Below are positions 53,169 through 64,000 of a DNA stretch of 64,000 nt, piece by piece. A model generated the notes under the pieces. It saw only the letters and a program-made list of their open reading frames with translations, was not told where the DNA came from and ran no database searches. The stretch is from an uncultured Roseivirga sp. (GTDB lineage: Bacteria > Bacteroidota > Bacteroidia > Cytophagales > Cyclobacteriaceae). The position numbers were made by a program, and so were the translations under genes. The stretch covers positions 124,001-188,000 of the forward strand of contig CANLOY010000006.1 in the NCBI GenBank assembly GCA_947493005.1, in the 5' to 3' direction. Every line of letters begins with the position of its first letter. The stretch's first letter is position 1.

Positions 53169-56100
53169 TTAATCGGTTAGCGGAAACTCCAGATAGAAGG
53201 TTGTACCCCTTTCGAGAGTGGAGTCAAACCATATACTCCCACCGGCATGTTCTACCCCACGTTTGGCTATGGCCAAACCAATACCAGAGCCTTCTTCCTT
53301 AGTACTAAATTTAGGGATAAATATCTTTTCCTTAATGTCGTCAGGAATACCCGATCCATTATCCTGAAAGGTTATTCTAGCCTTATTATGGGTAAGGATT
53401 AATTCGATTGACAACATTCCAGACCTGTCTTCAGGAATGGATTGTTCGGCATTGAGAATCAGGTTATTGAAAATTCGTCCAAGCAATTTAGTGTCGCCTA
53501 AAACCCAAACCGGTTGCTTTGGTATGTTGGTCTTGATCTCCAGTTTGTTCCCTTTAAACAATCTGATTGATTTCCTCAGTTCCTCTACCAGGTCCAAACG
53601 CTCACTTATTGGTATTGGCATTTTTGCAAACGAGGAGAACGATGTAGCAATATCGCTAAGCGTTTCCACCTGACTTAGTAAACTATCTATTGGTTTGTTA
53701 AAATCACCTGCCTGATCAGGTGCCGAATCCAGCACACGTTTCAAGTGCTGAAGCTTCAGCTTCATAGGTGTTAGGGGGTTTTTAATTTCGTGTGCTACCT
53801 GCTGCGCCATTTCACGCCAGGCACTCTCCTTTTCACTTAGTGCTAATGCTTTCTTACTTTTTTCTAGATTGGCCAACATCTTATTGTACTCCCCTACCAT
53901 TAAGCCAATTTCATCATTTGCTTGCCACTCTAACGGTTCGTTGAGTGTAGAAAGTGTGGTAGACTTAATTTTCTGAGTAAGGTATTTAAAAGGATATGTA
54001 AGGATTCTGGACGCCAGAAATGACAATAATATGAATATCACAAAAATGAAGGTGAAAGCATTGAGTATGTTGGAAAGTATATCACGTTGTTCTGCTTTCA
54101 ATTGTTCTTCCGAATCAAAGAAGGGCATACTTAACACTCCTAATAAACGACCATTTTCATTTGATTTAATTCCATAGAAAGTTGCTCTATAGGTCAGTTC
54201 TCCAACCCTTTCCTCGCTCAGTTGTTCCTTGTTTCCGGCTTCTACTATATTGGCCATAGCATTGGGGTTAGCAAATGGGGCCAAACGTTCGTTATCAAAA
54301 ATCAGTCTCTGATTGGTGGCAATCAAACGACCATCTGTATTAAAGAGGTTGATATCGGCTTGTGCATACTGGCTAATCTCTGCAATACGGTTTTCAAGTT
54401 CTTCATTGTTTTCGTTCTGCCCTTCCAGAAAGTTCTGTAGTTGATTAGCCAGGTTTTCAGCTGCACTTTCAGTAATAGATAGGTACTGAGTTTCTATCTT
54501 CTCTTCAACCGTTCTGTTCACCAAACGAAGCACTACAATACTTACGATAATCAGAGGAAGGAAGAATGCAAAATTCAGAAGTATCTGGATCTTAGCAGAG
54601 AGTGTGGTGCTCGTTTTTCTAATGTTATAGAAAACTGCGCTAACACCAAAAATCATGATAATGGCCGCTACCATGAACAAGAAAAAAATGGCAAAGTTGG
54701 TGATAAGATACTTTGGAGGATAAAGCGGACTACTGATTACATATACCTTTTCACTCCCTTCGTTTTTTATACCTAAATGATTAAAACCCGAAGCAATAAT
54801 TCCATCTTCATAAAGCGCTGGTTGACTAAGTAGATCAATATTGAAGTTTCTGTTATAATTGAAATCTCCGCTAGTGGCTGACAGTATCTCATTATCATAA
54901 ATACCGTAGTCAAATTGTTTGGCTTCTCCTTCTTCAAATGGTTCATCCAATAAAAGTCTTGGAAGCACGCTATTGTTCAATTGTTCTTTCCTGTCAAGTG
55001 TTATCAGAATGTAACCTACTGTTGTGTTATATCTTTTAATCTCATTGAACAGGTAGTATTGATTTAGCTGTACCGGGTAGTTCTTTCTGTAAAAGTAAAG
55101 TCCTTCAAATTCAGTCGCATTTTCAGGAATAGCATAGGTTTCCAGCAGATCATCATACCTTGCGAAAGTATTACTGTTAATCGCTCTTCCACCTCCGTTG
55201 AAAAGTAAAATTTCGATTTCGTACTTATCGAAATAATCGCCCAGATACACCCTTTGAATTACCTTCCTGATCTGATCTTTAGATGTAAAAGTGTTGGCAA
55301 TTCCAGTCTGTATAAGAATGTCTTGCTGGATTTTCTCCTTTGCGTCTGAAAGTAAAAACTCCGCTATATCATCATTCTCTGTCTGAAGCCTGATAGCCAA
55401 ACTTCTCTTTTCATCAATATTCCGATTGACAATATGTCTAGTGAGTATAGTGGTACTTATCGAAGCCATTAAAAAGGCTGCTATAAAGAAATACAGGAAG
55501 GTATTATAGTTTACCTTATCCAGTTGATCAGATAGCTTGAAGTTATAGACTATCAACAGATATCCCATTAACAACCCCACCATCATGACATTTGGTATTT
55601 CAAAAAACCATGACACACCCACACTTAATAATAGCAGCGTAGTTAGGATGCCATTCACTAAAAAATTATCCTCTATTAAACGGAGTTCCTTGCTCAGATA
55701 CTGTCCAAGTAAAAACGGAATTATGGCAATAATAAAAAGGGCAAAATAGACCAGTAGTTTGAGTAAACTAAAGCTAATGTCTTCTGCTACATCAAACGAC
55801 CACTGGGAATTAACAAGCAAAGATTCAACCTCAGTGACAAAGTAGATTAGCGAACCAACAAGTAGTAATAGCGGTAAGATAACGGTTTTTATACCTGCAG
55901 TATGCTTCTGACGTTGCCTTTTCGAAAACACATTGTATCCAAAACTCACTGCAACCAACAGTGCTATCTGGTTTAAGATAAAATCTCCCAAAGATGGCTG
56001 CCACCAACTGGCGGCAAAGTTATCGGGCTCAAAAAGGGACCACTCTATGATACTCAGGGGGTATTCATATCGCAGCATCGTGAGTCTTGGTATAATGAGG

Positions 56101-56855
56101 AATACGGCAACGAGAAGAACTGCTAAGTAAGGCATTCCTTGCCTTGTCAGTTTCTGGCTATAGATAAATCCAGACCAGATAAAGGCGGCTATAGATACCA
56201 GGTACAGCAGGAATATAAATGTTGAGAAGCTTGGGTAATCTACCTTCATTCGCTGAGTTCCTTCAAACGAAAACAGGAAGGTACCTTGTGGTGAATAGAT
56301 GTTATTACTATCGTCCTGTTCTATATCGGAGAGCGTAAAAGAAGACCTTCCGAAAATCTCTCCATTCAGACCATATTCAAGAAAAGATTTATTTAATGGT
56401 ATATCTGATGATAGTGGAAGCAATGCAAAAATCTCCACCACGCGGTTTTGCGCACTGTTAATCACCTTTCTTCTTACTATAAACTGACCTCCCTTAAGAT
56501 CCAGGAATCGATATAAGTAGTTGCCATCGAGTGTCCCATATTTAGGAACAAACCGATTGGTACTCCAGTAGATCACCTCACCATTTTCGTAAATAAAATA
56601 TGGTAGTTCTTCATTTTGAATGAATCGGTTAAAAAGTCTGTTCAAGTCAACAATTGCATTGTTGCTAACCTGTTCAACGTGATTATCCAGCTGATTTAGT
56701 GCTGCATTCAGGTTCTCTGTAATCCGTTCTTTAGGATCTACTCTACGCTTCTGATCAGAGAATATAGCTTCATCGATAACCAGTGTAATGACCAGTAATA
56801 CTATACTTACAATTAAGAATTTGTTGGTTCGAAAAAAACCTTGTGTAATACTCAA
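53169..56855 (-). CDS. Giant NtrY-like membrane sensor histidine kinase
   Basis: A protein of 1228 residues. A first membrane helix (about 11-29) precedes an extracytoplasmic domain (30-210). A block of about seven helices (210-475), a second extracytoplasmic region (480-715), two helices near 718-775, a third periplasmic loop (780-930) and a final helix (940-960) follow, then HAMP (WQANDEIGLMVGEYNKML), HisKA with QVAHEIKNPLTPMKL (His1022) and HATPase (NNLILNAEQS, DNGSGIP, GSGIGLAIA). The His box is the NtrY form. No response regulator gene is next to it; instead it is followed after 2 bases by the large barrel gene. The size, with three external domains, is unusual for a kinase. Confidence 0.88.
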   Translation of the reverse strand: MSITQGFFRTNKFLIVSIVLLVITLVIDEAIFSDQKRRVDPKERITENLNAALNQLDNHVEQVSNNAIVDLNRLFNRFIQNEELPYFIYENGEVIYWSTNRFVPKYGTLDGNYLYRFLDLKGGQFIVRRKVINSAQNRVVEIFALLPLSSDIPLNKSFLEYGLNGEIFGRSSFTLSDIEQDDSNNIYSPQGTFLFSFEGTQRMKVDYPSFSTFIFLLYLVSIAAFIWSGFIYSQKLTRQGMPYLAVLLVAVFLIIPRLTMLRYEYPLSIIEWSLFEPDNFAASWWQPSLGDFILNQIALLVAVSFGYNVFSKRQRQKHTAGIKTVILPLLLLVGSLIYFVTEVESLLVNSQWSFDVAEDISFSLLKLLVYFALFIIAIIPFLLGQYLSKELRLIEDNFLVNGILTTLLLLSVGVSWFFEIPNVMMVGLLMGYLLIVYNFKLSDQLDKVNYNTFLYFFIAAFLMASISTTILTRHIVNRNIDEKRSLAIRLQTENDDIAEFLLSDAKEKIQQDILIQTGIANTFTSKDQIRKVIQRVYLGDYFDKYEIEILLFNGGGRAINSNTFARYDDLLETYAIPENATEFEGLYFYRKNYPVQLNQYYLFNEIKRYNTTVGYILITLDRKEQLNNSVLPRLLLDEPFEEGEAKQFDYGIYDNEILSATSGDFNYNRNFNIDLLSQPALYEDGIIASGFNHLGIKNEGSEKVYVISSPLYPPKYLITNFAIFFLFMVAAIIMIFGVSAVFYNIRKTSTTLSAKIQILLNFAFFLPLIIVSIVVLRLVNRTVEEKIETQYLSITESAAENLANQLQNFLEGQNENNEELENRIAEISQYAQADINLFNTDGRLIATNQRLIFDNERLAPFANPNAMANIVEAGNKEQLSEERVGELTYRATFYGIKSNENGRLLGVLSMPFFDSEEQLKAEQRDILSNILNAFTFIFVIFILLSFLASRILTYPFKYLTQKIKSTTLSTLNEPLEWQANDEIGLMVGEYNKMLANLEKSKKALALSEKESAWREMAQQVAHEIKNPLTPMKLKLQHLKRVLDSAPDQAGDFNKPIDSLLSQVETLSDIATSFSSFAKMPIPISERLDLVEELRKSIRLFKGNKLEIKTNIPKQPVWVLGDTKLLGRIFNNLILNAEQSIPEDRSGMLSIELILTHNKARITFQDNGSGIPDDIKEKIFIPKFSTKEEGSGIGLAIAKRGVEHAGGSIWFDSTLERGTTFYLEFPLTD

Positions 56856-56945: not shown

Positions 56946-57341
56946 CTAATTATTTTCCTTTCGCTCTAATTCACCTCTGAACTTCAATCCTCCAAAAGCA
57001 TAGAGATAGAAAATTCGTGAATAGCGATACATCAGAGGATACAGCAAAAATACTTCCGAAATTATAGCAATGAGATAAACATTTTCAGAAGTTGGGTTGA
57101 AAGCCCAATAAATAATGAATGCACTTACTAAAAACAACCCTACTGAAAGGGCATAACTAATATACATAGCCCCGTCAAAAAACCTCGGTTCTCTTTCAAA
57201 CCTCACATGGCATTCTGAACACTCTTCATTTACTTTGGTAAAGTTGCCAAGATTATAGGCACTATGCTTAAACAGTTTTCCTTCCCGACATTGAGGGCAT
57301 CTACCCTGCAATACTGCCAGTGCTTTGGGCTTTTCTGACAT
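56946..57341 (-). CDS. DUF983 family protein with zinc-ribbon
   Basis: A protein of 131 residues. Four cysteines form a zinc-ribbon-like pair (GRCPQCREG near 13-21 and ECSECHVRF near 40-48), followed by two membrane segments (about 60-80 and 84-105). DUF983 genes often accompany cytochrome c oxidase genes and the family is thought to help oxidase assembly or act near heme/copper delivery, though no activity is shown. Its start overlaps the end of the upstream 89-aa gene by 41 bases, implying translational coupling. Confidence 0.85.
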   Translation of the reverse strand: MSEKPKALAVLQGRCPQCREGKLFKHSAYNLGNFTKVNEECSECHVRFEREPRFFDGAMYISYALSVGLFLVSAFIIYWAFNPTSENVYLIAIISEVFLLYPLMYRYSRIFYLYAFGGLKFRGELERKENN

Positions 57342-57606: not shown

Positions 57607-58134
57607 TTAATGTACATAATATGGGCTCATCATTAGATAAACTATTACCCCAGTCACAGAAACATATAACCAAAAAGGGAAAGTATATTTAACAATACGC
57701 TTATGCTGGTCTATCATGCCATTTAGTGCATAGTAGAAAGCCAGTAACACCAAAGGAACAACACCAATTGAGAGCAGAATATGTGTAATTAAAAAGAAGT
57801 AGTAGATATACTTAAGCGTTTCATCCCCTCCAAATGCGGTAGACTCTGCACTGGCATGATATGTTACGTAGCACAACAAGAAAACGGCTCCTAAAACAAA
57901 AGCTGCTGAGTTGAATTTCTTGTGCAACTGAATGTTTTTACGCTTTATAAAAACAAAAGCCAAAATAAGGCAGATAGAAGTCAGCGTATTTATTCCCCCA
58001 ATTACATGTGGCAGTGTATAAACCCAATCTCCAAGGTCTAATTTGGTGGGTAAGCCCAAAAGTATGGCTACTACCAAAGGAATTGCTACAGATAGTAGCT
58101 TGATCCAAAACATTGATTTCTTTTGATCTTCCAT
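57607..58134 (-). CDS. DUF420 family membrane protein (CtaM-like oxidase accessory)
   Basis: A protein of 175 residues with five membrane segments covering DUF420 (YHASAESTAFGGDETLKYIY, FFLITHILLSIGVVPLVLLAFYY, FPFWLYVSVTGVIVYLMM). In Gram-positives, CtaM of this family is needed for a functional heme-copper oxidase. Conserved His residues in membrane segments (HVIGGINTLT, THILLS) may bind heme or copper. It begins 5 bases after the upstream Sco-like gene stop, so both are on one transcript. The role is inferred from its neighbours. Confidence 0.85.
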   Translation of the reverse strand: MEDQKKSMFWIKLLSVAIPLVVAILLGLPTKLDLGDWVYTLPHVIGGINTLTSICLILAFVFIKRKNIQLHKKFNSAAFVLGAVFLLCYVTYHASAESTAFGGDETLKYIYYFFLITHILLSIGVVPLVLLAFYYALNGMIDQHKRIVKYTFPFWLYVSVTGVIVYLMMSPYYVH

Positions 58135-58139
58135 CTTTA

Positions 58140-58721
58140 TTATTCCTCCGTATTCAAGATTTTTATTTCCAATATTAGTCTATCAGTTTCATCCCTTTCC
58201 AGAATATTGTAATAGCCTCTTATTCGATTCTTTGTATCAATAAGCACAACTCTGTTATCTAGGTTGGTCATTGCCATATTACATAGTTTGAGCTTTTTCC
58301 ATTCCTCAGAAGCTAACTCTCTGACCTTCCAAAACTGATCAAGAAACTGAATACGTTTGTTATAGTCAGTTATGTCTTTTGCCTTTATCGTTTCTCCATT
58401 CAGATACGTTGTCAGAGATACGTTATCAAATTCATAAAAAACATCCTGAACTCTCTCCAATGCCTCTAATCTGGTTTTCAGAACAGGGCCATCCAGTCTT
58501 TCAAAATGGACTACTTTAATCCCTTTGTCAGACACTTCTTTAGTATTGACAACATACTGTTCCTTAGCTTTGTTTAAGCATGGTGTAGAAAGTGAATCGC
58601 CCAAACCCTGTTCGTAATACACAGGAATTACAAATTCATTCTTCCCAAAGGTTTTAAGAAACAGGAATATGATTACCGGCAGGGCAATTAGTAAAAACAG
58701 AAAAACTACCTTTTTATTCAT
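58140..58721 (-). CDS. Sco1/SenC-like protein lacking the copper-binding motif
   Basis: A protein of 193 residues with one N-terminal membrane anchor (about 4-22). The order of segments follows Sco proteins: NEFVIPVYYEQGLGD at the mature start, VVHFERLDGPVLKTRL where the family has a strand followed by the CPxxCP loop (about 71-85), ERVQDVFYEFDNV, and VVLIDTKNRIRGYYN...LILEIKIL at the end (158-189), typical of Sco. Both motif cysteines and the distal His are missing; only Cys48 and Cys147 exist. It is probably a degenerate or repurposed Sco that cannot deliver copper in the known way. Its location in the cox cluster before DUF420 is the usual Sco position. Confidence 0.55.
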   Translation of the reverse strand: MNKKVVFLFLLIALPVIIFLFLKTFGKNEFVIPVYYEQGLGDSLSTPCLNKAKEQYVVNTKEVSDKGIKVVHFERLDGPVLKTRLEALERVQDVFYEFDNVSLTTYLNGETIKAKDITDYNKRIQFLDQFWKVRELASEEWKKLKLCNMAMTNLDNRVVLIDTKNRIRGYYNILERDETDRLILEIKILNTEE

Positions 58722-58791: not shown

Positions 58792-59169
58792 TTAATGTCC
58801 CTTTTCGACATGTTCAGTTTGAGCAGGCGCTTCAACATCCACTATTCCTTTTGCATCTTTGATTGCACCACCTTCGAGGTTAACTAAAGCTACAATCAAC
58901 CACATGATAAACATCATTGGTAAGACTACTGAATACATTAAGCCTTTTACCTCGTGGCCTAAGTGCATAAACTCAGAGACTATATAAAATGCCTTCCAAA
59001 TAGTTAACCCAATAAATATTGCAGACCTAAGTGTTCCAGCAGGCATATTAAAAGCCAAAACATATTCGAAAGCAGTAATGGCTGCCATATATAAAGCCAC
59101 CTTCCAGATGCCTAAAATTTTCTTTCTATCAGCCGGTTGAACGACTACGTTACTTGTTGCTTGTTCCAT
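58792..59169 (-). CDS. Cytochrome c oxidase subunit IV
   Basis: A protein of 125 residues with three hydrophobic helices (about 24-42, 48-66, 78-100) of the CoxD/CtaF family, containing FIGLTIWKAFYIVSEFMHLGHE and VLPMMFIMWLIVALVNLEG. Small subunit IV stabilises the core complex of the aa3-type oxidase. The N-terminal AEQATSNVVVQPADRKK-like stretch is hydrophilic, and the C-terminus is charged with KGIVDVEAPAQTEHVEKGH. It lies 13 bases after the subunit III gene; a terminator follows. Confidence 0.88.
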   Translation of the reverse strand: MEQATSNVVVQPADRKKILGIWKVALYMAAITAFEYVLAFNMPAGTLRSAIFIGLTIWKAFYIVSEFMHLGHEVKGLMYSVVLPMMFIMWLIVALVNLEGGAIKDAKGIVDVEAPAQTEHVEKGH

Positions 59170-59182
59170 TGTAAAAACTTAA

Positions 59183-59953
59183 TCAGATCAAATAGAAGAA
59201 TGTAAAAACGAATACCCATACAAGGTCTACAAAGTGCCAGTATAAACCGACCTTCTCTACCATTTCATAGTGTCCTCTTCTTTCATAAACACCGTTAGCT
59301 GCATTAAAGAATATCAGAACATTTAAAACTACTCCCGAGAATACATGGAAACCATGGAAACCAGTTATAAAGAAGAATAACGCTGCAAATGCTGGAGGTC
59401 CATATTGGTTAAAACTCAGGTTCGCTCCAAAGATTTTGTAACCTTCAACCCATCTACCATTTACAACAACATCACCAATTGTTGCTACTTCAGTACCATG
59501 GATAAAGTGAGCCCACTCCCAAGCCTGACAGCTCAAGAAAGCCAAACCACCAATAATTGTCCAAAGCATCCACTTTACCACATTTTTCTTGTCCATTCTA
59601 TGTCCAGCTTCTACTGCCAATACCATAGTTACAGAACTCATAATCAGAATGAAAGTCATTAGTCCTACGAAGACTAAAGCCCAGCTGTCGCCATGCAATC
59701 CACCTGGAAAAGCATTATACACCTTCTCTGGAATAGGCCAATACTCGGTTGAAAAAGTAAAAGCATCAGGATCTCCATTATAAGCAGGTGCACTCCATCT
59801 TAAGAAAGCGTAAGTAATGAGCAATCCAGAAAAGGTAAATGCATCTGAGAGCAGAAAAAACCACATCATCAGTTTACCATAACTGGCTTTGAAAGGTTTA
59901 GCTGCCCCTCCCCCCCATAAGCTCTTTTTATTCACTGTAGCAGTAGTTGCCAT
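59183..59953 (-). CDS. Cytochrome c oxidase subunit III (second copy)
   Basis: A protein of 256 residues with about seven membrane helices of heme-copper oxidase subunit III, including FHGFHVFSGVVLN and HFVDLVWVFVFTFFYLI at the C-terminus. A periplasmic loop insert (about 125-175: GTEVATIGDVVVNGRWVEGY) lies between helices. It is larger than the other subunit III (195 residues), encoded 12 bases upstream. Bacteroidota oxidase operons usually have two such genes; which one acts as true subunit III in the aa3 complex is not certain. Confidence 0.9.
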   Translation of the reverse strand: MATTATVNKKSLWGGGAAKPFKASYGKLMMWFFLLSDAFTFSGLLITYAFLRWSAPAYNGDPDAFTFSTEYWPIPEKVYNAFPGGLHGDSWALVFVGLMTFILIMSSVTMVLAVEAGHRMDKKNVVKWMLWTIIGGLAFLSCQAWEWAHFIHGTEVATIGDVVVNGRWVEGYKIFGANLSFNQYGPPAFAALFFFITGFHGFHVFSGVVLNVLIFFNAANGVYERRGHYEMVEKVGLYWHFVDLVWVFVFTFFYLI

Positions 59954-59965
59954 AAAACAGTTTAA

Positions 59966-60553
59966 TTAATGATTCAGTAATAAAAATATGAACAAATATA
60001 TCCAGAGTCCTCCTAAAAAGTGCCAGAATGTTGTACACATATCCATGTTCAACATATTCTTAGAATGCACTTTATATCGGAAAGACGATACTAGCATATA
60101 CAATAAATAAATCACACCACTAATAAGGTGTGCAGCATGTAAGCCTGTAAATACATACATAAAGCTTCCTGCCGGATTTCCGACAAAGAACACGCCTGCA
60201 TCTACAAGTTGTCCCCAAGCCTTAAACTGACCATACAAAAAGGCCAGCCCAAGCACGGTTGCTATTGACAGAGCAAGTTTCACCTGCTCTGGTTTATCTT
60301 TCTTAGCAGCAATATATGCCCACTGCATAAATCCACTGCTCGCTAAAATTATTCCTGAAGTTACCCATAGCATAGAAGGTATATCGTATACCAACCAGTC
60401 GCCATCGGCTTGCCTTACAATGTGTGCACTTGTAAAGGCTGCAAAAATCATTACCACCGTCACGATGAACAACCACATCGCAAATTTCTTTGGATGCATT
60501 GAAAGTGGTTGTTCCACAGGAGCGTCTACAAGTTTATAATCTTCCACCATCAA
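59966..60553 (-). CDS. Cytochrome c oxidase subunit III (first, short copy)
   Basis: A protein of 195 residues with five membrane helices, matching the short form of subunit III: MHPKKFAMWLFIVTVVMIFAAFTSAHIVRQ near the start, GLHAAHLISGVIYL and CTTFWHFLGGLWIYLFIFL near the end. The two N-terminal helices of long subunit III are missing, as in the quinol-oxidase-like or split subunit III types. The start overlaps the ctaB stop by 4 bases, showing translational coupling with heme O synthase. Confidence 0.88.
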   Translation of the reverse strand: MMVEDYKLVDAPVEQPLSMHPKKFAMWLFIVTVVMIFAAFTSAHIVRQADGDWLVYDIPSMLWVTSGIILASSGFMQWAYIAAKKDKPEQVKLALSIATVLGLAFLYGQFKAWGQLVDAGVFFVGNPAGSFMYVFTGLHAAHLISGVIYLLYMLVSSFRYKVHSKNMLNMDMCTTFWHFLGGLWIYLFIFLLLNH

Positions 60554-61452
60554 TTAACCATGTCTAATAAGTACGCAATTTGAACTATCGGTAAGTACAA
60601 AAAAGAACCGAACATAATCTGCAATGCAGACTTACGAGATTGATCTCTCATCAACTTGATGGTTGACGCTAAAAATAGCACACCACACACCGTTGCCACT
60701 ACAGCAGAATTGGTTCCTGTTAGGCCAAAATACATTGGCATCAAACCCATTGGAATCAAAAACAGTGTGTAAGTCATTATTTGAAATGCTGTTTTCAAAT
60801 CCTTTTCGCCTTGAACAGGCAATAGTTTGAAACCAGCTTTTTTATAATCTTCATCTGCTACCCAGGCAATAGCCCAGAAATGAGGGAACTGCCAGATAAA
60901 CTGTATACCAAAAATGATCATTGCTGCATGGCTAATATCACCAGTTGCAGCTGTCCAGCCCAATAGAGGAGGTAAAGCTCCAGGAATTGCTCCGACAAAT
61001 ACAGCAATAGGTCCTACTCTCTTTAAAGGAGTATAAACAAAGCTGTACAAAATCATTGAAAGGGTGGCCAGTCCTACTGTCAGCCAGTTTGTGTAAACCA
61101 TCAGCAGGTATAAACCAACCAGTGCCAGAATAGTAGCAAACCACAAAGATTCTGAGCTGTTCAGTCTGGCTGTAGGTAAAGGGCGCGATTGAGTACGCTT
61201 CATTACCTTATCAAGGTCTTTCTCCCAAACCTGATTGATAGTGCAAGAAGCACCACTAATCAAAAACCCTCCTATAAAAAGCATTGTCAATTGTAACCAA
61301 TCTACATTGCCTCCCATAGCCAGTGCATAACCAAAAGCCGATGAAAAAGACACTACCAATGACAAACGCATTTTGGTCAATTCCATGTAAGCCTTTGCCT
61401 TTTGTGCAAAGAGTGTTGATAGTTTAATATTTGTAGAATCACTTGATATCAT
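60550..61452 (-). CDS. ctaB: Protoheme IX farnesyltransferase (heme O synthase)
   Basis: A UbiA-superfamily membrane protein of 300 residues with about nine helices. It attaches the hydroxyethylfarnesyl tail to heme B, giving heme O. The first Asp-rich motif is CTINQVWEKDLDKVMKRTQSRPLP (near 75-98) and the second loop WAIAWVADEDYKKAGFKLLP (near 200). It requires farnesyl diphosphate, whose precursors come from the MEP pathway (ispG in this window). It starts 3 bases after the ctaA stop and its end overlaps the next gene by 4 bases. Confidence 0.95.
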   Translation of the reverse strand: MISSDSTNIKLSTLFAQKAKAYMELTKMRLSLVVSFSSAFGYALAMGGNVDWLQLTMLFIGGFLISGASCTINQVWEKDLDKVMKRTQSRPLPTARLNSSESLWFATILALVGLYLLMVYTNWLTVGLATLSMILYSFVYTPLKRVGPIAVFVGAIPGALPPLLGWTAATGDISHAAMIIFGIQFIWQFPHFWAIAWVADEDYKKAGFKLLPVQGEKDLKTAFQIMTYTLFLIPMGLMPMYFGLTGTNSAVVATVCGVLFLASTIKLMRDQSRKSALQIMFGSFLYLPIVQIAYLLDMVN

Positions 61453-61455
61453 AGC

Positions 61456-62493
61456 TCAAGCTAAATTCGTTTTTTTATGGTTCATAAGGAGCAGCAAATA
61501 ATACTGAACTCCGATTATTAATGTTCCTAATAGCAAGTGTATCGGTTGAATAAAGGCAGGCACACCAAAGTAAGCCATGATAACCCCACTCAAAATTTCA
61601 ATGACAACAATAATCAGTAACCATTTCACTGAAAACCTTAAGTGATCACTCTTCAATAATAAATAGAAGAGATATCCATGTAATCCTAGTAATAAGAGCG
61701 AGTAAGAGCGATGAATCAGAAATGAAACTCCTAATTCAGAAATCCACTCACTTCTTTCGACAAGCGTAGCCACCATATCAATGGCCTCTCTTACTTGTGT
61801 CCCCAGTATTACCTGAATCAAAGTCAGAATCAAACATACTATTGTAAGCATTTTAACCTTTGCAGGGGTTTGAAAACCTGAGTCTAGCAAATTCCTCTTT
61901 GATCTAAAGAATACATAGATCAAAAGACAAACGATAATAAGCGCTAACAGCATGTGGATTGTAATCAGCCAATCCAGTAAGTTAGTACTTACCACTATGG
62001 AGCCAATCCAGCCTTCGAAGCCGACCAACACAAATGCAATAAATGAAAGAACGGTTATAGGTCTATCTTTTTTCCAGTACCTGATCGATAAAACAAATGT
62101 TCCAAAGATCAGTAGTCCAATAGCCACACCTATAAGGCGGTTCACATATTCTACCCAGGTCTTTGCAGCGTTAAAATCCTCTTCTTCAAGAATACTTGGA
62201 TCATTTTCAACCTGATAAGCCAAGTCATTAAATCCTAACACTGTTAAATACTTAGAGAACTTTTTATTTTTTTCAACCCTTTGTTGAACATAGTCCTCCT
62301 TGTAGTTTTCTGGCAGTTGCTCCACACTCGTTGGTGGAACCCAACTCCCGAAGCACTTTGGCCAGTCTGGGCACCCCATTCCTGAACCTGTGCTTCTTAC
62401 TATACCTCCTACTGCGATCAGCAGGTATACAGCTATAATTGTGACGGCTGAAAACCGCCTGAACAATCTTCCTTTAGTGTCCTTTGGACTCAT
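61456..62493 (-). CDS. ctaA: Heme A synthase (COX15/CtaA)
   Basis: About 345 residues from ATG 62493, the best start by family length; the frame is open to an ATG at 62532 that would add 13 residues. Both overlap the end of ctaD (by 20 or 59 bases). Eight hydrophobic helices and four conserved His positions are seen, with RSTGSGMGCPDWPKCFG after helix 1, VEYVNRLIGVAIGLL, TIHMLLALIIV, LIHRSYSLLLLGLHG and PIHLLLGTLIIG. It converts heme O to heme A for the aa3 oxidase. Cysteines near GMGCPDWPKC may form the regulatory pair of this family. Confidence 0.92.
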   Translation of the reverse strand: MSPKDTKGRLFRRFSAVTIIAVYLLIAVGGIVRSTGSGMGCPDWPKCFGSWVPPTSVEQLPENYKEDYVQQRVEKNKKFSKYLTVLGFNDLAYQVENDPSILEEEDFNAAKTWVEYVNRLIGVAIGLLIFGTFVLSIRYWKKDRPITVLSFIAFVLVGFEGWIGSIVVSTNLLDWLITIHMLLALIIVCLLIYVFFRSKRNLLDSGFQTPAKVKMLTIVCLILTLIQVILGTQVREAIDMVATLVERSEWISELGVSFLIHRSYSLLLLGLHGYLFYLLLKSDHLRFSVKWLLIIVVIEILSGVIMAYFGVPAFIQPIHLLLGTLIIGVQYYLLLLMNHKKTNLA

Positions 62494-64000
62494 CCACCAA
62501 GATTTCTTCTGCTTCTTCCTTCTCCAAAGCAATCAAGTCATTTTCATGTGGAAGATTTGACTCCATTGTTTCTGAGAAAGGTACAGTCTGAGGAATAAAA
62601 TCATCCTCTGCTCCTGGTTTAGAATAGTCATAAGGCCATCTATATACTTGTGGTATTTCACCTGGCCAGTTACCGTGTCCCGGATTAATTGGCGTAGTCC
62701 ACTCAAGTGTATTAGACTTCCATGGGTTAGCAGTTGCTTTTCTTCCTCTGTAAATACTATAGAAGAAGTTAAACAAGAATATAAACTGGCCAATGAAAGT
62801 ACATATTGCTGCCACAGATATAAACTGGTTCAGATCGGTAAAACCACTGAAGGCATCAAAGTTGGTAAATGAGTAATATCTTCTTGGGAAGCCTGCTATT
62901 CCAATGTAGTGCATTGGGAAGAATACAGCATATATACCAATAAATGTTAACCAGAAATGAATATACCCTAGTTTGGCATTCATCATACGCCCGAACATTT
63001 TTGGGAACCAGTGGTATACACCTGCCAATAGTCCAAACGCTGAAGCTGCTCCCATAACTAAGTGGAAGTGAGCAACTACGAAGTATGTATCATGTAATTG
63101 AATATCAATAGCAGAGTTACCAAGGAATATACCTGTAATACCTCCAGAGATAAATACTGACACCAAACCAATTGAGAACAACATGGCAGGTGTAAATACA
63201 ATGTTACCCTTCCATAGAGTTGTCAGGTAGTTAAATACTTTAACTGCTGATGGCACTGCAATAATCAATGTCAGGAACATGAATATTGACCCAAGGAAAG
63301 GGTTCATACCAGACACGAACATATGGTGCGCCCATACAATAAATGAAAGGAATGTGATACCAAGCATTGATACAATCATGGCTTTATAACCAAAGATTGG
63401 TTTACGCGAATTAGTCGCGATAATCTCCGATGTAATACCTAATGCCGGAAGTAATACAATGTATACCTCAGGGTGTCCTAAGAACCAGAACAAATGTTGA
63501 TATAGGATCGGGCTACCTCCTACGTTTGGTAGTGCTTCTCCATTAATGTATATATCTGAAAGGTAGAACGATGTTCCAAAGCTTCTATCAAATACCAATA
63601 GTAAAGCAGCAGCAAACAAAACAGGGAATGAAAGTACTCCAATCACTGCAGTTAAAAAGAACGCCCAGATTGTAAGTGGTAACCTTGAAAAGGTCATCCC
63701 CTTAGTTCTAAGATTGATAACAGTAGTGATATAGTTAATACCTCCAAGTAATGACGAAGCGATAAAGAATACCATTGCTACAAGCCACAGGGTCATACCG
63801 AGACCCGAACCAGGCATTGCTGTCTGAATAGCCGATAACGGAGGGTATACTACCCAACCTCCTGAAGCAGGTCCTGTCTCAATAAATAGTGAAATGAACA
63901 TTAATACCCCAGAGGCAAAGAAGAACCAATAGGACAGCATGTTCATAAAGCCTGAAGCCATGTCTCTGGCTCCAATCTGTAATGGAATCAAAAAGTTAGA
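62474..64000 (-). CDS. ctaD: Cytochrome c oxidase subunit I, partial (N-terminus beyond window)
   Basis: The last 509 codons or so of the catalytic subunit; the frame runs off the window with NFLIPLQIGARDMA at its visible start. Ligands to the heme-copper centre are present: the CuB His with cross-linked Tyr in LGHPEVYIVLLP, the HH pair in VWAHHMFVSG, and the heme a3/a ligands in VVAHFHLVMGAASAFG; HDTYFVVA precedes them. The K-channel lysine and other segments follow in normal order. The tail (about 45 residues after the last helix) is acidic. It is the aa3-type terminal oxidase subunit that reduces O2 and pumps protons. ctaA follows with overlap, so the message continues leftward. Confidence 0.96.
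   Translation of the reverse strand, partial: SNFLIPLQIGARDMASGFMNMLSYWFFFASGVLMFISLFIETGPASGGWVVYPPLSAIQTAMPGSGLGMTLWLVAMVFFIASSLLGGINYITTVINLRTKGMTFSRLPLTIWAFFLTAVIGVLSFPVLFAAALLLVFDRSFGTSFYLSDIYINGEALPNVGGSPILYQHLFWFLGHPEVYIVLLPALGITSEIIATNSRKPIFGYKAMIVSMLGITFLSFIVWAHHMFVSGMNPFLGSIFMFLTLIIAVPSAVKVFNYLTTLWKGNIVFTPAMLFSIGLVSVFISGGITGIFLGNSAIDIQLHDTYFVVAHFHLVMGAASAFGLLAGVYHWFPKMFGRMMNAKLGYIHFWLTFIGIYAVFFPMHYIGIAGFPRRYYSFTNFDAFSGFTDLNQFISVAAICTFIGQFIFLFNFFYSIYRGRKATANPWKSNTLEWTTPINPGHGNWPGEIPQVYRWPYDYSKPGAEDDFIPQTVPFSETMESNLPHENDLIALEKEEAEEILVDESKGH

Follow-up and report, generated by a model that had tools for sequence, protein, structure and literature searches.

A Sco homologue without its copper site in the cytochrome oxidase operon of Roseivirga

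Described Sco systems and the operon studied here

Sco proteins are helpers that put copper into an oxygen-using respiratory enzyme. Their precise role is debated, with copper delivery and reduction of the CuA cysteines as the two proposals (PMC7558416, PMC3971200). The nearest precedent for the protein that we describe is HCC2 of Arabidopsis, a Sco homologue in which the copper-binding cysteines and histidine are missing and which coexists with an intact HCC1; the authors of that study speak against a metal-transfer role (PMC3971200). A ligand-less Sco is, on that account, a kind already known in plants. The pattern that the two cases have in common is a ligand-less Sco accompanied by an intact paralogue in the same genome, and we claim no shared descent. 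HCC2 differs in being mitochondrial, reportedly dispensable to COX and associated with the response to UV-B stress, and it lies outside an oxidase operon; the account of it describes a form common in plants, not repeated losses. In Paracoccus denitrificans, ScoA and ScoB are paralogues with overlapping roles (PMC9145763), and this pair illustrates how one of two copies could be freed, although the source describes both as functional and, in the part that concerns them, describes no ligand loss. CtaM, a DUF420 membrane protein reported to be essential for the oxidase in Bacillus and Staphylococcus (PMC9145763), is similar in being an oxidase assembly protein without an assigned mechanism, encoded by the neighbouring gene at our locus, but it is polytopic and belongs to another Pfam family. 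In the titles and abstract openings of the open-licence papers that our searches listed we found no report of a bacterial oxidase-operon form with repeated origin and a constant remainder, a scope that does not establish its absence from print.

The gene lies in a window of 64,000 nucleotides (the whole stretch of DNA analysed, contig positions 124001-188000) from a 4.88 Mb Roseivirga (Cytophagales) genome. A preliminary description of this DNA had proposed a 193-residue reading frame within an oxidase cluster: the frame is real, starts with ATG and lies on the minus strand, in a cox cluster. The features, all on the minus strand, are as follows.

58140..58721, minus: copper-free Sco-like protein P0001, 193 aa, ATG start (ORF call and translation)
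58792..59169, minus: COX4_pro, cytochrome c oxidase subunit IV, upstream neighbour (Pfam PF03626)
57607..58134, minus: DUF420 membrane protein (CtaM type), downstream neighbour (Pfam PF04238)
56946..57341, minus: DUF983 protein (Pfam PF06170)
59183-59953, minus: COX3-type subunit, first of two (Pfam PF00510)
59966-60553, minus: COX3-type subunit, second of two (Pfam PF00510)
60550-61452, minus: CtaB, heme O synthase type (Pfam PF01040)
61456-62532, minus: CtaA, COX15 (Pfam PF02628)
62474..64000, minus: COX1, running past the window end (labelled by reading the translation)
just beyond COX1, outside the window, minus: COX2 with the CuA motif CTEICGGGHFSM (translation read)

In transcription order the operon reads COX2 (past the window), COX1, CtaA, CtaB, COX3, COX3, COX4, the Sco-like gene, DUF420 and DUF983, which makes the Sco-like gene the eighth in a CuA-type cytochrome oxidase operon. 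Its named relatives (n = 15, 12 of them Roseivirga) are 41-74% identical. Downstream of the cluster, 53169-56855 on the minus strand codes for a 1228-aa membrane protein whose C-terminal part resembles a histidine kinase (HEIKNPLTPMKLKLQ), as labelled from its translation.

Sco ancestry, the former copper site and what remains

We collected 110 Sco proteins occupying this operon slot: 95 from 100 fetched regions (three of which, L060, L090 and L095, had been chosen around the Sco-like gene itself) and 15 from other homologue loci. Thirty-three are intact, with both motif cysteines and the distal histidine (C, C, H), 66 are without either motif cysteine, and 11 are partial, a class defined by at least one cysteine in a motif column without the full set, in which three members with a single cysteine may reflect chance alignment. 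The 33 intact members argue against a concern raised at the outset, namely that homologues in the same position might never have had the motif and might align to another family.

The assignment of the protein to Sco1/SenC, originally proposed from family patterns, is upheld by hhalign profiles, an AlphaFold model and structure searches with Foldseek and VIA; the segments that had been quoted as Sco-like are all present, in the order claimed. A profile of 13 of the 19 genus proteins aligned with four CxxxC Scos (three intact operon Scos and the CxxxC Sco encoded elsewhere in the host genome) at 99.9%, E 2.6e-33, over 188 columns, and 52 of the 66 motif-less proteins aligned with 32 of the 33 intact operon Scos at E 5.4e-51; both alignments include the anchor segment. 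The AlphaFold model, built from 16 sequences (pLDDT 82.5, pTM 0.76), has a predicted thioredoxin-like fold in the Sco arrangement. Foldseek, run as the preliminary description had advised, ranked BsSco 1xzo first (E 2.4e-6, TM 0.54 on the query), while VIA placed SCO1/SenC 4hde (Z 14.9, 143 residues, rmsd 2.5) ahead of 1xzo (Z 14.6). In VIA the best non-Sco match scored 12.7, and human SCO1 stood at about 12 along with other thioredoxin-like folds; with these scores so close behind, the fold alone identifies the protein as thioredoxin-like, and the Sco assignment rests on the sequence profiles. On these profiles, the protein is a true Sco1/SenC homologue. Pfam and NCBIfam searches of P0001 gave zero matches, and neither P0001 nor the 52-row motif-less profile had a significant match among PDB sequences. 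The Pfam SCO1-SenC model detects 2 of the 52 motif-less homologues, and such genes therefore escape annotation. A TlpA/ResA-type thiol-disulfide oxidoreductase was considered and rejected, because the CxxC active site is absent and the sole cysteines are C48 and C147.

Compared with the Sco1/SenC/PrrC/YpmQ family (PF02630), the protein shares the thioredoxin-like fold, the order of Sco strands and helices, the predicted single N-terminal anchor, the cox-operon position and the C-terminal IRG segment, with 1xzo and 4hde as top structures; it differs in having neither CxxxC nor the distal His, in being missed by the Pfam model and in carrying an extra conserved cysteine pair. The relevant parts of the gene, again on the minus strand, are listed below.

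58647..58715, minus: N-terminal membrane anchor, residues 3-25 (AlphaFold helix 3-25)
58578..58580, minus: C48 codon, first of a conserved pair outside the Sco motif (kept in 108/110)
58467..58502, minus: ERLDGPVLKTRL, residues 74-85, in place of the CPxxCP loop and the start of the next helix (alignment; model helix 81-95)
58281..58283, minus: C147 codon, second of the conserved pair (kept in 106/110)
58146..58250, minus: C-terminal beta-beta-helix, residues 158-192, around LIDTKNRIRGYYN and ETDRLILEIKIL, the best conserved part

Both the replacement of CPxxCP and the missing distal histidine, as first described, were verified in a MAFFT alignment and by residue position: GPV-LK (residues 78-82) stands opposite CPSICP of the intact operon homologues, and this protein lacks a His at the distal HS position. 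The only histidine, H72, is in the strand before the former CxxxC motif in the AlphaFold model. Within the genus the replacement is fairly conserved (DGPVLKTRLE in 9/13 rows, GPVLK in 10/13), and both motif cysteines are missing in all 19 genus genomes examined, which are counted among the 66 and some of which are near relatives. The earlier statement that all copper ligands are lost thus stands for the Sco site, with the addition that another cysteine pair, C48/C147, is strongly conserved.

The anchor belongs to a conserved P..IFLFLK.FG.N segment continuing to N28. Across the 52 motif-less proteins, which have a mean column identity of 24%, E185 is invariant and P15, F21, L22, F25, G26, N28, C48, C147, D162, R168, G169, D180 and R181 are nearly so. 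The C-terminal segment, modelled as strands 158-161 and 167-171 followed by helix 176-192, keeps the pattern D...RG...DR..E. Over 130 proteins, C48 and C147 are both present in 111 and both absent in 16, C48 occurs alone in three (one of which, in G059, is probably a misalignment) and C147 never occurs alone (Fisher p 8e-18, which overstates independence owing to the relatedness of the genomes). The simple reading of this co-occurrence, inflated as it is by genome kinship, is that C48 and C147 probably form a disulfide. That the pair replaces CxxxC was rejected, since the two coexist in 33/33 intact members.

Losses and constraint among relatives

The slot is occupied in 95 of the 100 regions. 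Among the five regions without a slot protein, L075, L122 and L126 stop at contig ends (the slot protein of L075 was located on another contig and added to the set), and L045 and L127, from genomes G024 and G169, have none after COX4. The slot gene is dispensable at that place in G024 and G169, the former having a distant homologue on another contig. In seven regions, L046, L070, L073, L079, L096, L103 and L121 (G025, G050, G053, G059, G078, G086 and G163), the slot protein has shrunk to 135-144 aa; these copies keep the anchor and the C-terminal segment, six of the seven have both aligned cysteines, and they represent, perhaps, a minimal thioredoxin-like core.

To count losses, we used a FastTree phylogeny of COX1, COX3a, COX3b and CtaB from 114 of 120 genomes, rooted on the outgroup and read with no regain assumed. 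Losses of the full motif within the family number nine on the resolved tree, seven when branches with support below 80 are collapsed and five below 95; losses of both motif cysteines number 17, nine and six, respectively. FastTree support values are local, and the lower counts are therefore the safe ones. At the collapse below 95, the full-motif loss of Roseivirga is no longer separate from that of its neighbours, whereas its loss of both cysteines is still separate. Loss of the copper motif is, as judged from this tree, recurrent, with five to nine separate full-motif losses required in the family; outside the family there are three to four more. G117 (intact) and G100 (lost) carry an identical genus code.

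Two cysteines and the histidine were read in 16 of 20 outgroup proteins, two of these with altered spacing, and the motif is lost in outgroups G094, G097, G098 and G104. L158 and L162 are order-level Scos with altered motif spacing (CGNPDFC and CTQNIC) in which the distal His is present. Searching the class with the motif-less profile gave matches in 261 of 295 genomes. The 30 best loci partly coincide with the family set and, by their selection, favour motif-less forms; they comprise 17 intact, five altered (two of them with CxxxC but Tyr in place of His) and eight without both cysteines (our own gene included), with COX4 beside 27 of the 30. In L236 and L239, class-level operon Scos, CxxxC is kept and the distal His is replaced by Tyr (IYSDK), a state that is perhaps an early step of loss.

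Within Roseivirga, the Sco-like gene has a dN/dS of 0.088 in the pair G006/G004 (a value resting on few changes, dN 0.006 and dS 0.07) and 0.024 in G014/G006; the corresponding values are 0.069 and 0.054 for COX4 and 0.026 and 0.047 for DUF420, and the remaining four Roseivirga pairs are saturated in dS. In the motif-less pair G046/G175, from outside Roseivirga, dN/dS is 0.226 vs 0.019-0.059 for the neighbours. In five further non-Roseivirga pairs the partial or lost slot proteins are 47-62% identical vs 63-93% for their neighbours, and change is slower where the slot protein is intact (81-88% identity, seven pairs). The G046/G175 value, together with the 47-62% identity of motif-less slot proteins in three other pairs, indicates that constraint is loose in some lineages. 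The Sco-like gene is thus constrained in Roseivirga and under looser constraint in some other lineages.

Copper demand, competing explanations and proposed role

The COX2 pattern C-x3-C-x3-H-x2-M of the CuA site is present in 96 of 96 proteins read, the host's own ligands included, and on this ground we rejected the idea that CuA and the Sco site had disappeared together. A search of the genome for an intact Sco, as suggested earlier, found one outside the operon: the single Sco above the Pfam cut-off, of 215 aa, with CPTICP and His and without a cysteine pair of the C48/C147 type. Read from sequence, it has a lipoprotein-like N-terminus and adjoins a cytochrome c-like ORF. A Sco outside the slot with C-x3-C and His was likewise found in 40 of 40 other genomes, picked among the strong PF02630 matches listed (32 with a slot copy without motif cysteines, seven with a partial one, and G024 with its empty slot). 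At E 1e-6, PF02630 matches 135 of 138 family genomes, and 125 of the 125 with completeness of 90% or more and contamination of 5% or less, with matches in 5 of 14 control genomes.

These data bear on four explanations other than the one we favour. That an unrelated, non-Sco family happens to occupy the slot is hardly credible: P0001 has no Pfam or NCBIfam match and the SCO1-SenC model finds just 2/52 motif-less homologues, as such a family would, but the profile-profile E is 5.4e-51, the top fold matches are Sco, intermediates exist in the series, and the motif-less profile retrieves CxxxC Scos of other families. A functionless, decaying paralogue would fit the lost copper site, the faster evolution relative to neighbours in some lineages and the copies of 135-144 aa; we nevertheless regard it as very unlikely, given a frame that is open, without stops, in 19/19 genus genomes examined, the retention of identical positions after separate losses and a slot filled in 95/100 regions. 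Plain decay is unlikely in Roseivirga in particular because dN/dS is 0.02-0.09 in the two measurable pairs, like that of the neighbours. The preliminary description had left the choice between a decaying paralogue and an assembly factor; purifying selection in these two pairs argues against the former within the genus, and a copper-free assembly factor appears to be the better fit.

The other two explanations retain a redox or copper-related function. C48 and C147 could have taken over from CxxxC, as a redox pair or as a copper site, and their persistence in nearly all proteins without CxxxC would agree with this. The pair, however, is already present in 33/33 intact members, so the site has not been replaced; the motif-less proteins of G022 and G028 have neither cysteine, and the genus alignment holds no invariant His alongside the pair. 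We rate this takeover as distinctly improbable. The copper-free copy might instead pair with the intact Sco and present this paralogue to subunit II, an arrangement that loosely recalls the joint action of human SCO1 and SCO2, except that the copy has no redox site of its own. An intact Sco does occur elsewhere in 39/39 genomes read that have a degenerate slot copy, and Pfam searches of the host genome for the PCuAC and Cox11 families were empty (3/14 and 1/14 control genomes matched), so that the paralogue would have few other known helpers. Against this, the paralogue is not tied to the degenerate form, as 32 of 33 genomes with an intact slot copy have at least two PF02630 matches, and G161 has a degenerate slot copy yet no PF02630 match (assembly 87% complete). 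Such pairing is, in our estimate, unlikely.

We consider it probable that the protein is a Sco descendant whose copper role has passed to the paralogue, and which is kept as a copper-free assembly or structural factor of the oxidase. The computed basis for this is Sco homology and fold, loss of the site, an unchanged slot, an intact CuA, an intact paralogue, purifying selection in two pairs and parallel losses; the partner at the oxidase and the mechanism may be the following. The gene descends from a Sco1/SenC copper chaperone and has lost its metal site, with CuA presumably metallated by the other, intact Sco. The operon copy would persist as a protein with one membrane span and a thioredoxin-like domain that a C48-C147 disulfide probably stabilises; this domain may dock either on subunit II or on the side of COX3 and COX4. 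So placed, the protein could support oxidase assembly or stability independently of copper, as a transient placeholder keeping subunit II copper-ready or as a stable accessory subunit. The anchor, the FG.N segment and the C-terminal RG...DR..E face, which almost all lineages retain, would be the putative docking parts, with the former copper loop left free to change.

Retention beside the oxidase genes after loss of the copper site suggests a second, copper-independent job, and one that, with the copper site removed repeatedly and the rest kept in the oxidase operon, becomes testable on its own. More tentatively, and as a possibility to which we give somewhat less than even weight, the operon Sco of Bacteroidia may have become, many times independently, a membrane-anchored subunit or assembly factor of the oxidase that is free of copper and requires no more than the anchor, one structural disulfide and the C-terminal docking face, pared down to a minimal thioredoxin-like core in some lineages. 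If true, this would mean that Sco ancestrally had a second role at the oxidase, one that does not depend on copper and can be separated from metal delivery.

The CuA loop of COX2 itself varies at one position: the Glu of C-x-E-x-C is present in 80 of the 96 proteins, and Lys or Gln takes its place in 16 (CNKICG, CQQICG, CNQICG), encoded in regions L046, L066, L068, L070, L073, L079, L080, L086, L087, L096, L102, L103, L120, L121, L133 and L134.
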